Part shown: positions 4,017-7,845 of the stretch, piece by piece
Numbering within the stretch: position 1 is the stretch's first letter
How the letters are laid out: each line of letters opens with the position of its first letter
Source of the DNA: a virus
Length of the DNA: 20,239 nt
Strand: one strand, 5' to 3'
IMG/VR virus record: IMGVR_UViG_3300024518_001002
Coordinates: 1 to 20,239 of that record
Notes under the pieces: model-generated
Seen by the model: only the letters and a program-made list of their open reading frames with translations
What the model was told of the DNA's origin: nothing
Databases searched by the model: none
Translations under genes and position numbers: made by a program

Positions 4017-4520
4017 ATGTTAACGAAGTTAGTAAGAATTGGCAGAGATGCAGAATTAAGATATACCAACAATCAAAAAGCTGTAATATCTTTAGCGTGT
4101 GTTTATGATATTGGATGGGGTGATAATAAAAAATCACAATGGATTGATGTTTCGGTATGGGGAAAGCAGGCAGAATCTTTGGCGCAATACTTGACTAAGG
4201 GTAAGCAAGTTGTAATTTATGCTGATGACGTAGAGTTAGAAGAATACCAAAAGAATGACGGATCAAGCGGAAGCAAGTTAAAAGCTCGGGCTATTAACAT
4301 CGATTTAACTAGCGGGGGTCAGCAACAAGCACCGGCACAACAACAAGCACCAGCACAACAAGGTGGGTTCCAACAACCTAGTCAGCAGTTAGCGGCAAAA
4401 AGAGCAGTGTCACAGCAACAAGCGACACAAGGAGGGTTTCAGCAACAAGGTCAGCAGCAAGCGCCAAAAGTAAACCCACAAGAACCAACGATTGATTTTG
4501 ACGACGACATCCCTTTTTGA
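4017..4520 (+). CDS. ssb: Single-stranded DNA-binding protein
   Basis: An OB-fold domain fills residues 1-100 (MLTKLVRIGRDAELRYT at the start, then QWIDVSVWGKQAESLAQYL). A Gln/Ala/Gly-rich linker follows (about 103-155) made from repeated QQAPAQQ and QGGFQQ units; the DNA shows the same near-repeats. The last residues, DFDDDIPF, are the canonical tip that docks host DNA repair proteins. At 167 aa it is normal for bacterial SSB. The GAGAGAG ribosome site supports the start. It follows the exonuclease and completes the recombination module. Confidence 0.96.
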   Translation: MLTKLVRIGRDAELRYTNNQKAVISLACVYDIGWGDNKKSQWIDVSVWGKQAESLAQYLTKGKQVVIYADDVELEEYQKNDGSSGSKLKARAINIDLTSGGQQQAPAQQQAPAQQGGFQQPSQQLAAKRAVSQQQATQGGFQQQGQQQAPKVNPQEPTIDFDDDIPF

Positions 4521-4565: not shown

Positions 4566-4754
4566 ATGAATATAATACAATTACGCACAAATAAACGAAT
4601 AACCTGTGCATGTGGCTGTAAGGAGTTGCAAAGGCTAGATAAGGTAACAGTTATCAATAATAAATACTTTCGTATGTACTGCGCTAAAATCTATAGGTTA
4701 CATGCTGAGGGTGTTAGATGGATAAGAGCTAGCTTTTTACATGTGCATAATTAA
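4566..4754 (+). CDS. Small Cys-rich protein, 62 aa
   Basis: Not recognised. The N-terminal TCACGCKELQRL places three cysteines as CxCxC (C14, C16, C18), and C39 and H46 lie further on (RMYCAKIYRLH), so a small metal site is possible. The protein is strongly basic. The ribosome site is TAAGGCG. It is the last gene before the palindromic control element at 4760 and the cassette-like region, and it is short enough to be an independent accessory gene. Confidence 0.6.
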   Translation: MNIIQLRTNKRITCACGCKELQRLDKVTVINNKYFRMYCAKIYRLHAEGVRWIRASFLHVHN

Positions 4755-4759
4755 TCGTG

Positions 4760-4794
4760 TTTACTATACGTATATAGTAAATATGTATAGTAAA
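4760..4794. promoter_or_regulatory. Operator-like palindrome with a third half-site
   Basis: TTTACTATA (4760-4768) and TATAGTAAA (4773-4781) form a perfect 9-bp inverted repeat around CGTA. A third copy, TATAGTAAA, lies at 4786-4794, 13 bases after the second. No good promoter boxes are placed around it, although TATAGT resembles a -10. It stands at the left edge of the cassette-like block. A cooperative repressor binding site is the simplest reading. Confidence 0.45.
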
Positions 4795-4806
4795 AGTGGT
4801 ATTTTA

Positions 4807-4835
4807 CACATAACCTAAAGCTAAGAAGTCGCTAA
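4807..4835 (+). repeat. Half of an attC-like site (left arm only)
   Basis: CACATAACC followed by TAAAGC and TAAG, then CGCTAACGCGGC, aligns with the left arm of the full site at 5428. No matching right arm with GTTGTTA is found before the lipoprotein gene. It looks like the truncated outer boundary of the repeat array. Confidence 0.35.
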
Positions 4836-4867
4836 CGCGGCAAATACAAAATTATTGGAGAATACAA

Positions 4868-5080
4868 ATGTTAAAATTAAACAACAAACTGTTAGCGATC
4901 TTTTTGAGCGTGTTGTTAGTTAGCGCCTGCTCCAAAACTTTAACGCAAGGACATCTTGCTGATGCTATAAAGTTTTGTGATGATAAGGGTGGTATATACG
5001 AAATAAATATTTACGAGGGGAATGAAAAGTTTGTTAACTGTAAAAATGGTGTGAATAGTAAAATTAATAGCGCTCACTAA
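4868..5080 (+). CDS. Small lipoprotein, 70 aa (cassette 1)
   Basis: The N-terminus is a lipoprotein signal peptide: MLKLNNK, a hydrophobic run LLAIFLSVLLVS, then lipobox VSAC with the lipidated cysteine at residue 21. The 50-residue mature part has two further cysteines (C37, C58), possibly a disulfide, and no known domain. Small phage lipoproteins often block receptors (superinfection exclusion) or act as spanin outer subunits; which applies is unknown. Its TTGGAGAATAC leader is a copy of that before the gene at 5522. The stop codon TAA lies inside the left box (CACTAAC) of the following attC-like site. Confidence 0.75.
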   Translation: MLKLNNKLLAIFLSVLLVSACSKTLTQGHLADAIKFCDDKGGIYEINIYEGNEKFVNCKNGVNSKINSAH

Positions 5081-5189
5081 CCTTTGCAATAAAGGGTAAA
5101 AACGAAACAACACGAATATTAATTATTAACACCAGAAGGAGCAACGCACAGCAAACTGTTTTTATCCCGTTTGAATGCGTTGTTATGTG
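5075..5189 (+). repeat. attC-like site A (imperfect inverted repeat, 115 bp)
   Basis: The left arm from CACTAAC (5075-5081) to TAAAAAC pairs with the right arm from GTTTTTA to GTTATGTG (5182-5189). Reverse-complementing the right arm and aligning gives TAAC, a non-pairing 6-7 base spacer, then AAAGGG against AAACGGG and TAAAAAC on both. GCAACGCA (5141-5148) can alternatively pair with TGCGTTG (5177-5183). The TAAC/GTTA ends, unpaired spacer and interrupted second box are attC architecture. The lipoprotein gene stops in the left box. Confidence 0.55.
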
Positions 5190-5212
5190 TTTTAACTGAT
5201 GTTGATAGGGGA

Positions 5213-5434
5213 ATGAAATTGAACAATATAGAGAGAGCAAAGTGCTGCACTTGTGGTTACGAGTGGTACAAAGGGCAAGATGGCAGTCATACTTGTAGTG
5301 ATTATTTATTGCGAAGAATTAACACGCTAGAGGTAGGATTGAGAGAATTAATTAGCGTAGCTGAAGATTGTGATGGGTGGGAGTCATTCCCAGTGTCAGC
5401 TTTACATTACGCCAATGAAGCGTTAGACACATAA
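5213..5434 (+). CDS. Zinc-ribbon-like small protein, 73 aa (cassette 2)
   Basis: The first 30 residues carry KCCTCGYEWYKGQDGSHTC, a CxxC pair followed by H and C that resembles half of a zinc ribbon. The C-terminal half is helical and acidic (LEVGLRELISVAEDCDGWE). The start at 5213 is preferred over an upstream in-frame ATG at 5171, because 5171 lies inside the attC-like site, while AGGGGA sits just before 5213. The stop TAA lies in CATAAC of the next repeat. Family unknown; a DNA- or protein-binding accessory role is inference. Confidence 0.65.
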   Translation: MKLNNIERAKCCTCGYEWYKGQDGSHTCSDYLLRRINTLEVGLRELISVAEDCDGWESFPVSALHYANEALDT

Positions 5435-5501
5435 CCTTTATGTTAAGCGCGTTAAAACCGCGCAGCGAACAGTTTTAATCCGCTTGAACTTGTTGTTAGG
5501 C
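5428..5501 (+). repeat. attC-like site B (best conserved, 74 bp)
   Basis: This is the clearest site. The left arm CACATAAC-CTTTATG-TTAAGCG-CG-TTAAAAC faces the right arm whose reverse complement reads GCCTAAC-AACAAG-TTCAAGCG-GA-TTAAAAC. TAAC/GTTA boxes pair, 6-7 spacer bases do not, TTAAGCG pairs with one extra base bulged on the right arm, and TTAAAAC pairs. GTTAGGC (5495-5501) fits the integron core GTTRRRY. The right arm TTGAAC-(6)-TTAG layout equals the bottom strand of a classical attC. Confidence 0.65.
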
Positions 5502-5521
5502 GGTAACTATTGGAGAATACC

Positions 5522-5743
5522 ATGACAGATAGCACTAAGTTTTTATATGATTTACAGCGATTACTTGAAAAGCACAAAGCTACAATCTCAGCAGATGATC
5601 ACTGGACAGGTTATGCTGAGTGTGGGCAAGATATACGGGTAGAAATAGACATTGAAGATAATTATGAAACGTTAGAGTTTAAATATATTGATGCTAAGTC
5701 TCTTAATGAGTTAATAGACCAGCGGATTATAGATAACGCCTAA
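5522..5743 (+). CDS. Small acidic protein, 73 aa (cassette 3)
   Basis: Not recognised. It starts MTDSTKFLYDLQRLLEKHKA, followed by a strand-rich acidic centre (GYAECGQDIRVEIDIEDNYE) and a C-terminal helix (KSLNELIDQRIIDNA). The ATG at 5522 is chosen because TTGGAGAATACC, the ribosome site, would be inside the coding region if the upstream TTG were used. Its acidic, DNA-mimic-like composition is notable but not diagnostic. The stop TAA is embedded in the left box GCCTAAC of the next repeat, as in integron cassettes. Confidence 0.7.
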   Translation: MTDSTKFLYDLQRLLEKHKATISADDHWTGYAECGQDIRVEIDIEDNYETLEFKYIDAKSLNELIDQRIIDNA

Positions 5744-5824
5744 CCTAGCGCACAGGCGCAAAATAAAGCGTTAGTGAAGAATGAACGACAAGCTGTTTTT
5801 GTCGTTTGATGTAAGTTGTTATGT
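5738..5824 (+). repeat. attC-like site C (87 bp)
   Basis: The left end GCCTAAC (5738-5744) is an exact RYYYAAC core, and the right end is GTTGTTATGT. The right arm (GTTTTTGTCGTTTGATGTAAG) aligns with those of sites A and B, but pairing with the left arm beyond the ends is poor. The right arm instead forms its own hairpin, AACGACAA/TTGTCGTT. The right arm is in the same orientation as in the other sites. Confidence 0.45.
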
Positions 5825-5856
5825 TACCGTTACAAATATTAAATTGGAGAAAGGAT

Positions 5857-6249
5857 ATGCATTACGATAAAGAAGTTGAGTTAAAAGAGTTGATAGGAAA
5901 GGTAATTAAAAATATTACTGGTTTAGAAAAAGACTCCGACGAGGTTCGTATTTTTACAGAATGCGGGCAAGAGTATATGTTTTACCATCCACAAGATTGT
6001 TGTGAAAATGTTGATCTAAATGATTACGAAGGTGAGGCAGAAGATTTAATTGGTGGGTTAATCACTAGCGCTGAAATAGCAGAAGGTGATCACGACAAAG
6101 AGCCTGAATATGCAGAAAGTTTTACATGGACATTCTACAAAATAGAGACATCTAAAGGTGGGTTATGGATGCGCTGGCTTGGTGAGTCAAACGGATATTA
6201 CGGAGAGGAGGTTGATTTTGTTTGGGTTAATAAGCCTGACTTGGTTTAG
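5857..6249 (+). CDS. DUF7448-like phage protein, 130 aa (cassette 4)
   Basis: The sequence shows the hallmarks I associate with DUF7448 proteins of phages and bacteria: YHPQDCCENV near residues 46-55, a GEAEDLIGG segment, SFTWTFYKIETSKGG, and the closing RWLGESNGYYGEEVDF. The biochemical role of the family is not known to me. The ATG at 5857 follows TTGGAGAAAGG; an in-frame ATG at 5821 is rejected because it lies in the preceding repeat. Its TAG stop is 2 bases before the next attC-like box. Being a known family, it shows the block carries real genes. Confidence 0.8.
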   Translation: MHYDKEVELKELIGKVIKNITGLEKDSDEVRIFTECGQEYMFYHPQDCCENVDLNDYEGEAEDLIGGLITSAEIAEGDHDKEPEYAESFTWTFYKIETSKGGLWMRWLGESNGYYGEEVDFVWVNKPDLV

Positions 6250-6251
6250 TA

Positions 6252-6314
6252 ACATAACCTTTATTATTCAGAGGAAACGGTTTCTTTGTTTTCCTTTGTA
6301 ATTAGTTGTTAGTT
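6252..6314 (+). repeat. attC-like site D (63 bp)
   Basis: ACATAAC (6252-6258) and TTGTTAGTT (6306-6314) form the ends. Between them, left-arm TTCAGAGGAAAC aligns with the reverse complement of the right arm, TTACAAAGGAAAAC, after a non-pairing spacer. Further in, AACGGTTTC can pair only weakly. The right end carries the TTGTTAG signature shared by sites A to C. Confidence 0.5.
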
Positions 6315-6350
6315 TTTGCTGACGACACAAATATATAAGAGAGAAAGAAT

Positions 6351-6479
6351 ATGAGTAGAGCTAAAAAGAAAACACCAGTAAAGCACACACCAAAAAACGA
6401 AAAGAAGCCACTGGTAAAAAATACGCGGTTTAGTGTTTTTATGAAAAGAGAGTGTATAGAAAAAGATAACCGCAGATAA
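6351..6479 (+). CDS. Small basic peptide, 42 aa (cassette 5)
   Basis: The ORF starts MSRAKKKTPVKHTPKNEKK and ends FMKRECIEKDNRR. It is very rich in Lys and Arg with a short central hydrophobic patch (TRFSVFM). GAGAGAAAGAAT is a strong ribosome site directly before the ATG. It occupies the place of an ORF between attC-like site D and the degenerate repeat at 6490, so it forms the last unit of the array. No family recognised. Confidence 0.5.
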   Translation: MSRAKKKTPVKHTPKNEKKPLVKNTRFSVFMKRECIEKDNRR

Positions 6480-6489
6480 TTAAAGCAAA

Positions 6490-6559
6490 CTAACACTGCA
6501 ATAAGAGGATATGATCCGCCTTTCCACAACTGCAATTAGCTTATTAAACATATAGTTAG
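6490..6559 (+). repeat. Degenerate attC-like repeat (site E)
   Basis: CTAAC (6490-6494) faces GTTAG (6555-6559), and AATAAG (6500-6505) faces CTTATT (6540-6545), with non-pairing spacers between. ACTGCAATAAG and ACTGCAATTAG are near-direct repeats within it. It lacks the TTGTTAG right end of sites A to D, so it is either a decayed member or a chance resemblance. Confidence 0.3.
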
Positions 6560-6629
6560 CTGTGTTTTGTGTAGAAAGAAGGATTTAAGGCAATTGTTAA
6601 TTTATACAGCACAAAATAAGGTTAAGTAA

Positions 6630-7004
6630 ATGGCTAATAAACCAGCAAACACAAAGCAAAAGAAATGGATGACTGACATAGCTGAATGGTCAATTTGCAA
6701 TATAGGGCTTTTGTATGGTGATGAATATGGCGGAGCAATACCGCAACTTCATCATGTGCTAGGCAGAAGTGCTAAACATGATAAAATAGCAATAGGGCAT
6801 GAATTTATATTACCGGTTCCTTTTGAGCTGCACGATGTAAGTAGTGATCATCCTGATAACGTCACACATTGTAAAAAAGCATTCATTAAAAGGTTTGGTA
6901 ATCAAAGAGATTTATTTTTGACTATGGTTGAATCAATGCGCGACCAAGGTTACGAATTACCATTAGCTAATGTTTGTGAATCTATACGGAGGTGTGGAGC
7001 ATGA
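6630..7004 (+). CDS. HNH-like (Ref/DUF968-style) protein, putative nuclease, 124 aa
   Basis: The centre reads PQLHHVLGRSAKHDKIAIGH and continues with LPVPFELHDVSSDHPDNVTHCKKAF. The HH pair and following histidines resemble the beta-beta-alpha metal site of HNH-type proteins found in phage recombination loci; I recognise this layout but cannot assign a precise family. At 124 aa it would be a single domain. TAAGGTTAAG precedes the ATG. Its stop overlaps the start of a PD-(D/E)xK nuclease gene (ATGA). The pairing suggests a DNA-processing role such as recombination or junction cleavage, by inference. Confidence 0.7.
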   Translation: MANKPANTKQKKWMTDIAEWSICNIGLLYGDEYGGAIPQLHHVLGRSAKHDKIAIGHEFILPVPFELHDVSSDHPDNVTHCKKAFIKRFGNQRDLFLTMVESMRDQGYELPLANVCESIRRCGA

Positions 7005-7288
7005 GTTTTCGTAGAGCCGCAAAAGTCGATGACAACCAAAGCGAAATAGTAGCACTGTTCCGTAAGCTTGGCTGGACTGTTTTAATTATCAGCCAACTAA
7101 AAAACTGCTGTGATATTATCGTTAGCAAATCAGGCCGGACAGTGGCTATTGAAATAAAAGACGGAGCAAAGCCGCCAAGCGCAAGAAAACTATCAGATGG
7201 CGAGATTAAGTTTCGTGACGATTGGCAAGGTGAATATCAGCTAGTGATTTGTAATGATGATGTTATCGCTATAAACAAGATGATATAA
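7001..7288 (+). CDS. VRR-NUC-like PD-(D/E)xK nuclease, 95 aa
   Basis: The protein contains the core nuclease pattern: KLGWTVLIISQLKNCCDIIVSK (with D38 as the metal-binding Asp of DIIV), then VAIEIKDG with E and K of the (D/E)xK motif, then a conserved KLSDGEIKFRDDW helix. This is the usual layout of phage VRR-NUC or small Holliday-junction-resolvase-like proteins. The start at 7001 overlaps the preceding stop and has ACGGAGGTG upstream, better than the GTG at 6992. It probably cleaves branched or nicked DNA during replication or packaging; the substrate is not deducible. Confidence 0.8.
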   Translation: MSFRRAAKVDDNQSEIVALFRKLGWTVLIISQLKNCCDIIVSKSGRTVAIEIKDGAKPPSARKLSDGEIKFRDDWQGEYQLVICNDDVIAINKMI

Positions 7289-7289
7289 T
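7281..7289 (+). promoter_or_regulatory. Extended -10 promoter candidate before membrane and late genes
   Basis: TGATATAAT is a perfect extended -10 (TGN-TATAAT) at the end of the nuclease gene, with only a poor -35 (TGTTAT, 7261-7266). Transcription would start near 7296, shortly before the gene at 7306. It is a reasonable candidate for the rightward late unit. Confidence 0.4.
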
Positions 7290-7305
7290 AAGGCATTGAT
7301 TAACA

Positions 7306-7845
7306 ATGGAGATATTAACATGGCTGGAACTTCTAAGCGCAAACGCAAGTAGCAGTAATTACCTTGCAAATACGCTATTCATTCTATATGCAATAGTCTC
7401 TATAGCGATAAAAAAGAGTCGGTATTTACTGGCTTTTTCTTTCTCTATCCTTATAGTTGAGCTATCTTTGTTTGATGGATTACAAGAACACCAGATATAT
7501 CTCATAGATTTTATAGCTTACTCTTACGTGTCATATTATGCACACACGTTAAAAGTTAAGAACGCTTGTGGTATTATGTGCTTACTAGATCTAATACTAA
7601 TAAATGATGCTTTGAAATATGGAGTTAACGGAACGCATGGAGAGCTTAAAACAGTTATTTATCAAAATATCGAATATCTTGCTTTTAGCGTTAATCTTCT
7701 CATTATCAGTTCATTATTACCTCTTGGACGAATATACGACGGTATCTGCCGTTTGCTTGATCATGCTTTTCGTGTCAAGGGTAATGGTTTTTATATGTTC
7801 GTTTTCTGGTATACTATCGGTAAGATACAATCAATCAAAAACTAA
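7306..7845 (+). CDS. Multi-pass membrane protein, 179 aa
   Basis: Several hydrophobic stretches are visible: TLFILYAIVSIAI (23-35), YLLAFSFSILIVELSLF (40-56), a YLIDFIAYSYVSYYA segment (64-78), CGIMCLLDLILIN (88-100) and AFSVNLLIISSLLPL (126-140), with positive residues between. That gives four or five membrane helices and no recognised domain. The ribosome site (AAGG at 7290) is distant from the ATG. The last third overlaps another membrane ORF in a different frame (7637). It lies before a small anchored coiled-coil protein, so a lysis (holin-type) or envelope role is possible but unproven. Confidence 0.6.
   Translation: MEILTWLELLSANASSSNYLANTLFILYAIVSIAIKKSRYLLAFSFSILIVELSLFDGLQEHQIYLIDFIAYSYVSYYAHTLKVKNACGIMCLLDLILINDALKYGVNGTHGELKTVIYQNIEYLAFSVNLLIISSLLPLGRIYDGICRLLDHAFRVKGNGFYMFVFWYTIGKIQSIKN

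Follow-up and report, generated by a model that had tools for sequence, protein, structure and literature searches.

A CALIN-like integron cassette array with gene polarity opposite to its attC sites in the early operon of a marine phage

The linear virus record IMGVR_UViG_3300024518_001002 (20,239 bases, analyzed over its full length and referred to below as the window) carries, between positions 4808 and 6561, five small open reading frames (ORFs) that alternate with imperfect inverted repeats. The repeats S0 to S4 are real attC sites and form, together with the ORFs, a genuine, integrase-less array of integron cassettes that resembles the clusters of attC sites lacking integron-integrases (CALINs) and is located in a marine phage operon of recombination and early genes. 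Its cassette ORFs are reversed relative to their attC sites. An initial annotation, made from the DNA sequence alone, had described an integron-like array of cassettes among phage early genes; this is supported by an externally trained attC model, by the matching ends of the cassettes, and by the loss of whole units in a related phage. The two outcomes that the annotation had named as refuting it, a lack of attC model matches and related phages with no unit-wise exchange, were both checked for, and neither occurred.

The cassette array

The array comprises the following features:
4808..4921, minus strand: attC site S0; right arm overlaps the signal peptide-coding part of ORF1, with the ribosome-binding site (RBS) and ATG in the loop
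4868..5080, plus strand: ORF1, 70 aa, lipoprotein-like, lipobox LVSAC; weak LPAM_1 match (E-value of 0.16)
4814-5080: cassette unit 1 (ORF1)
5075..5188, minus strand: attC site S1; right arm carries extra bases
5213..5434, plus strand: ORF2, 73 aa, zinc-ribbon-like
5081-5434: cassette unit 2; ends GTTATGT / ACATAAC match 7/7
5429..5501, minus strand: attC site S2
5522..5743, plus strand: ORF3, 73 aa, function not assigned
5435-5743: cassette unit 3; ends GTTAGGC / GCCTAAC match 7/7
5738..5824, minus strand: attC site S3, reported by the covariance model as 5731-5824
5857..6249, plus strand: ORF4, 130 aa, DUF7448 (PF24240, E-value of 9e-26; phrog_2650, 2e-40)
5744-6257: cassette unit 4; ends GTTATGT / ACATAAC match 7/7
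6252..6314, minus strand: attC site S4
6351..6479, plus strand: ORF5, 42 aa, basic, with an RBS-like leader; direction uncertain, as a longer minus-strand ORF crosses it
6258-6493: cassette unit 5; ends GTTAGTT / AACTAAC match 7/7
6488..6561, strand not assigned: S5, degenerate terminal site with TAAC and GTTA ends, the proposed anchor for cassette gain or loss

All units share the same layout of hairpin, RBS, ORF, and stop codon, with the left box TAA|C as the crossover core. The observation that stops fall in or just before the TAAC box can be sharpened: the stop codons of ORFs 1, 2, and 3 are the TAA of the TAA|C core of S1, S2, and S3, respectively, so that the crossover point lies directly 3' of the gene. 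The leaders are also alike, namely ATTGGAGAATAC for ORFs 1 and 3 and AATTGGAGAAAGG for ORF4. The DUF7448 protein (PHROG 2650) encoded in cassette 4 is a widespread phage protein whose gene is not accompanied by attC elsewhere; therefore, phage genes do become cassettes. The 12 viral loci with DUF7448 homologs that were inspected as possible markers of such arrays contained no convincing array. No matches to ORF2 or ORF3 were found in named phages; a search for ORF3 in 198 Veronia-order genomes also found none but had no positive control and is uninformative.

Identification of the attC sites

A simple scanner that scores the arm following TAAC against the reverse-complemented arm preceding GTTA ranks S0 (score of 14.6), S2 (13.3), S1 (13.0), and S3 (11.9) as the top four places of the whole window, with S4 at 10.9; in 300 shuffles of the 2-kb region, scores of 12 or more appeared in three matches only. 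Two covariance models were used in addition. Model R1, for which 14 canonical attC sites were taken from two phages with integrons, detects chromosomal integrons well and matches S2 with an E-value of 0.12 on the minus strand and S4 with an E-value of 1.1. Model R2, built from 92 sites drawn from the R1 matches with the window and its relative L009 excluded, matches all five sites on the minus strand, with E-values (approximate to a factor of ∼5) of 1.7e-6 for S1, 1.1e-4 for S2, 1.1e-3 for S0, 3e-3 for S4, and 5.5e-3 for S3. The S0 site of L009 is also matched on the minus strand (2.1e-5). Outside these sites, the best place in 25 kb reaches an E-value of only 1.6, and R2 had no matches at an E-value of ≤2 across 12 other phage loci (251 kb). 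Thus, the sites that the initial annotation had placed at S1 to S4 are in the right positions and well above the R2 background, and its “half site” at 4807 is actually the full site S0, whose right arm lies within ORF1.

The TAAC/GTTA core is present at every site, while the full RYYYAAC/GTTRRRY consensus is found only at GTTAGGC / GCCTAAC; the variants GTTATGT and GTTATGC also occur in accepted integrons. On one arm of the sites, two to three bases are extra-helical, and the unpaired spacers are asymmetric, as expected of attC. Minimum-energy folding yields the attC hairpin for the sites of two further loci, L002 and L035 (see below), but as a means of site detection, it proved uninformative for AT-rich sites with long loops. 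The earlier impression that S3 pairs poorly is corrected by the attC register, in which its pairing is adequate (the scanner score of 11.9), although its minimum-energy fold lacks the hairpin.

In a circular integron cassette, the bases outside its two R boxes pair together. In a linear array, the bases that follow GTTA should therefore complement those that precede the TAAC of the next site. This is the case, with 7/7 matches, in four of the five cassettes of the window, in three of the four of L002, and in the single cassette of L035, whereas a 7/7 match between the two ends of the same hairpin was never seen in any of these arrays. At the outer three bases, agreement in known integrons is cassette-wise in 57 of 72 cases and hairpin-wise in 8 of 72. 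These end matches are strong evidence that the units were assembled in the manner of integron cassettes. However, end matching alone is silent on polarity, which rests on the arms of the sites and on the models.

Reversed polarity of the cassettes

According to both models, the sites are on the minus strand, whereas ORFs 1 to 5 are read on the plus strand. In canonical attC sites viewed in gene direction, the extra-helical bases belong to the left arm, with a left spacer of AAA or AAG, as seen in both controls. In S0, S1, and S3, as well as in L009 S0 and the L002 sites, the extra bases are on the right arm, with the same spacing as in the controls; on the minus strand, S1 reads ATT[C]AAA[C]GGG[A]TAAAAAC. 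The same extra C can be recognized by eye on the right arm of S2. Model R1, which was trained on canonical sites only, also assigns S2 and the L002 and L035 sites to the minus strand.

To count polarity, the strand of the longest ORF of each cassette was compared with the strand of its attC site. In the control integrons, 68 of 71 cassettes had the ORF on the attC strand, as did 32 of 37 in a second set (100 of 108 in all). In the window, L002, and L035 taken together, the ORF was opposite to attC in 9 of 10 cassettes (Fisher P of 8e-9). Adding the phage H101 by its annotated genes brings the count to 12 of 13 (P of 1e-10); by longest ORF, two of three H101 cassettes are reversed. The usual layout, in which the ORF is on the attC strand and attC is 3' of the ORF (a criterion that is not strictly defining), is not what is found here. 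The initial annotation missed this: it considered the array to be constructed just as integron cassettes are, but here attC and ORF run antiparallel. No report of phage arrays with all cassettes reversed was found in the open-access literature.

The exceptions to the same-strand rule among the controls are mainly scattered single cassettes. Reversed-ORF cassettes, 8 among the 108, are thus found here and there in ordinary integrons (L099, L103, L107, L109, L011, and L068), and such cassettes are a possible source of phage-compatible ones.

Genome context

The left part of the window encodes the Erf annealing protein, the YqaJ exonuclease, and SSB, whereas the terminase and structural genes occupy the right part; the large terminase is ∼80% identical to those of Vibrio breoganii phages. 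The array is located between the SSB gene and a RecA-dependent-nuclease-like gene, and its immediate neighbors are as follows:
4017..4520, plus strand: SSB gene of the Erf-YqaJ-SSB recombination module, left of the array (PF00436, E-value of 5e-15)
4566..4754, plus strand: ORF0, conserved left flank of the array (88% protein and 92% DNA identity to L009)
6630..7004, plus strand: right flank gene, RecA-dependent-nuclease-like (PF16786, E-value of 0.009, under the Pfam cutoff)

With five attC sites within 1.5 kb and no integrase found, the array corresponds to the definition of a CALIN (at least two attC sites in an integrase-less neighborhood). It is not a complete integron, which comprises intI, attI, and the promoter Pc, given that no PF00589 match was obtained; attI and Pc were not searched for.

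The flanking nuclease gene did not prove useful as a marker of such arrays, as the L008 homolog (57% identical) has no array next to it. R2 finds no attC in the nearest named phages by terminase or SSB (L014 to L018) and has no match in P12002L.

Overlap of attC site S0 with ORF1

The right arm of S0 doubles as coding sequence for part of the ORF1 signal peptide (KLLAIFLSVLLVSAC). Between the window and L009, 5 of the 21 base pairs of S0 are changed on both sides and 97.6% of the cells stay paired; controls with slid registers showed zero two-sided pair changes. These paired changes favor hairpin folding. An attC site and a signal-peptide reading frame occupy the same DNA in two diverged copies, with the recombination site retained within the gene. 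Similarly, the L002 site at 4741-4822 includes the start codon of its ORF.

A related phage without cassettes 2 to 5

L009, a 4.7-kb virus contig, has in common with the window ORF0 (92% DNA identity), S0, the lipoprotein ORF (44% identical to ORF1), and the S5 flank (96%). There is nothing between ORF1 and S5 in L009, so that exactly cassettes 2 to 5 are missing; gain or loss of whole units, for which related phages had been suggested as a check, is thus seen in this single comparison. The TAA of the lipoprotein gene is followed directly by the S5 hairpin, GCGCT-TACTAA|CACTGCAATAAGG, and the switch point is inside the ACTAAC core common to S1 and S5. This junction has the sequence that would be predicted for attC × attC excision at TAA|C under the reversed polarity; with the normal polarity, the S1 hairpin, not that of S5, would remain in L009. 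Cassette 1, at 69 to 76% DNA and 44% protein identity, is more diverged between the two phages than the flanks, as if it had also been exchanged.

The two contigs also differ to the left of S0. In the window, positions 4757-4797, between ORF0 and S0, contain AT-rich palindromic operator-like repeats (TTTACTATACGTATATAGTAAATATGTATAGTAAAA) that are not found in L009, where the stop codon of ORF0 leads directly into the S0 core. Among viral contigs, the S5 flank sequence was found in L009 alone, and a search through homologs of the lipoprotein led to no relatives other than L009.

Similar arrays in other phages

The same inversion is found at four further phage or prophage loci. L002, a 20.8-kb virus contig related through its SSB, has its genes on the plus strand and the following sites:
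4342-4403, 4741-4822, and 7407-7465, minus strand: attC sites matched by the model
4999-5051 and 7673-7721: hairpins that fit by their ends

The 2.4-kb L002 unit at 5048-7410, which contains the SSB gene and two endonuclease-like genes, is flanked by sites whose ends are complementary (GTTATGC / GCATAAC) and looks like a single large cassette of core phage genes. L002 also contains, at 4083-4114, a nearly stemless 32-base site with R boxes and spacers (R2 E-value of 0.2, minus strand), which is possibly the remnant of a deleted attC. Among viral contigs, the L002 hairpin sequence TAACAGAGAGATCGRCGGC was found only in L002 itself.

L035, a contig of an Endozoicomonas metagenome-assembled genome with Erf-like, YqaJ, SSB, and integrase genes, is read here as a prophage; its features are as follows:
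5993-6042, minus strand: attC site between plus-strand genes
6373-6425: degenerate element TAACACTCTGCTTAT at the end of the last unit, resembling S5 (TAACACTGCAATAAG)

This element and S5 may be anchor sites in the phage flank. None of the cassette proteins of L002 and L035 were found in named phages.

The Pseudoalteromonas phage H101 (PH101) has four plus-strand sites amid minus-strand genes, and MW202573 has two weak minus-strand sites (E-values of 0.02 and 0.5) amid plus-strand genes. Two of the H101 regions (L088), 26530-26586 and 27932-27988, contain near-identical attC sites and leaders (AATATAGAAGGAAAA..ATATG) with different ORFs downstream, which suggests that attC plus leader is a reusable cassette part. 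The two integrase-bearing phages have the normal polarity. In the integrase-less phage arrays, the ORFs run with the phage operon regardless of the orientation of attC, as would fit selection for expression.

Mechanism and alternative explanations

The array can probably be explained as a set of reversed cassettes that are exchanged at TAA|C by attC × attC recombination, most likely with a host IntI acting in trans. Each unit would then consist of C-hairpin-GTTNNN-RBS-ORF-stop (TAA), in which the 3' end of the gene carries the crossover core TAA|C, the attC R' box. Such units would be gained or lost to the left of the degenerate S5, and a gained cassette would be transcribed from the phage early operon and expressed because all genes face the phage promoter. 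The predicted substrate would be the folded plus strand, i.e., the bottom strand of the sites. The substrates of integron integrases are attC bottom strands that are folded and vary in sequence. For this reason, and because the phage fragment carries no recombinase, the integron integrase of the host appears to be the likeliest motor. Two attC sites of H101, the only one of the reversed arrays for which this has been described, recombine with IntI1 in vivo (PMC9892861).

Several observations weigh against this explanation. No match to tyrosine recombinases (PF00589) was obtained in the 20-kb fragment, in which the initial annotation had likewise seen no integrase, although the record may be incomplete. 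Minimum-energy folding does not produce the full attC hairpin for the long AT-rich sites of the window. S5 was placed by the initial annotation as a degenerate site at 6490, and it does have the TAAC and GTTA ends but no R2 match. The ends of cassette 1 match at only 6 of 7 positions. R2 includes a few phage sites that were oriented by R1, so that its polarity call, unlike that of R1, is not fully independent. The published integrase-less array of the phage TJE1 has the normal polarity. Finally, the left arms of S1 and S5 have ACTAAC and slightly more in common (TGCAATAA), and the L009 junction could thus also stem from homologous or illegitimate recombination.

The initial annotation also offered a capture relic, understood here as a piece of a host chromosomal integron that the phage acquired and that has ceased to recombine. 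The phage capture of such pieces has been described (PMC9892861), and the fragment without an integrase and the degenerate site at one end would agree with it. However, a chromosomal integron piece would carry its genes on the attC strand, as 100 of the 108 control cassettes do, whereas ORFs 1 to 4 are reversed; simple capture therefore does not account for these arrays. In addition, cassette 4 carries a widespread phage gene, and it follows from the comparison with L009 that units were gained or lost inside the phage lineage, all of which makes such a relic unlikely. An integrase-free alternative, in which units derived from attC are moved among phages by homologous recombination between the hairpins through the phage's own Erf, YqaJ, and SSB proteins, draws on the location of these genes next to the array, the partial similarity of the sites, and the mosaic flanks common to L009 and the window. 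Yet the arms differ between sites while the variable ends match cassette-wise, which homologous exchange would not yield, and the common core at the L009 junction is just ACTAAC with a short imperfect stretch; this route is accordingly considered improbable. The repeats could also be viewed as a non-integron family of 5' untranslated region hairpins that precede each early gene and serve in RNA processing or the control of translation, given their location just 5' of each ORF, the shared RBS leader, and the RBS and ATG in the S0 loop. For RNA hairpins, however, cassette-wise ends would be meaningless, and the externally trained attC model matches all five sites, including the pattern of extra-helical bases; in a scan of the region, every Rfam family also stayed under its gathering score. 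This view is nearly refuted by the cassette-wise ends and the attC model and has very little probability left. Exchange of reversed cassettes by a host integrase remains the preferred explanation.

Relationship to known systems

The closest known systems are the phage CALINs (Qi et al. 2023, PMC9892861), represented by H101 and MW202573, in which attC sites and small ORFs likewise alternate without an integrase and which, according to the present analysis, share the reversed polarity of the window. The available passages of PMC9892861 present the H101 array as typical in structure and are silent on reversed polarity. Compared with these arrays, the window adds an attC site that overlaps a signal-peptide gene and a relative that lacks whole units. 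The sedentary chromosomal integrons of Vibrionaceae and others share with the window the attC structure, the extra-helical bases, the cassette-wise ends, and mostly one small ORF per unit. However, their attC sites are 3' of and parallel to the gene, whereas those of the window are 5' and antiparallel, and no integrase is seen in the window. The integrons of Treponema (PMC3607928) also depart from the usual layout, but by an inverted intI gene; no report was found of their cassette ORFs being reversed relative to attC. In the Tetrasphaera phage TJE1, an integrase-less attC array is located near the SSB gene, as in the window, but its attC sites and coding sequences are on the same strand, in the canonical manner.

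Phage CALINs have been presented as potential vehicles for bacterial cassettes. Seen in the window, in its relative L009, and at four further phage or prophage loci, the reversed polarity instead indicates that many phage arrays, rather than being samples of bacterial integrons, form a separate set of cassettes suited to phage operons. A tentative extension, plausible but well short of assured, is that marine phages keep their own pool of reversed cassettes and trade units via host integrases, with even core genes becoming cassettes. The host IntI is predicted to excise cassettes at TAA|C during infection, via the coding strand. If true, integrons would be a means of gene shuffling for viruses.

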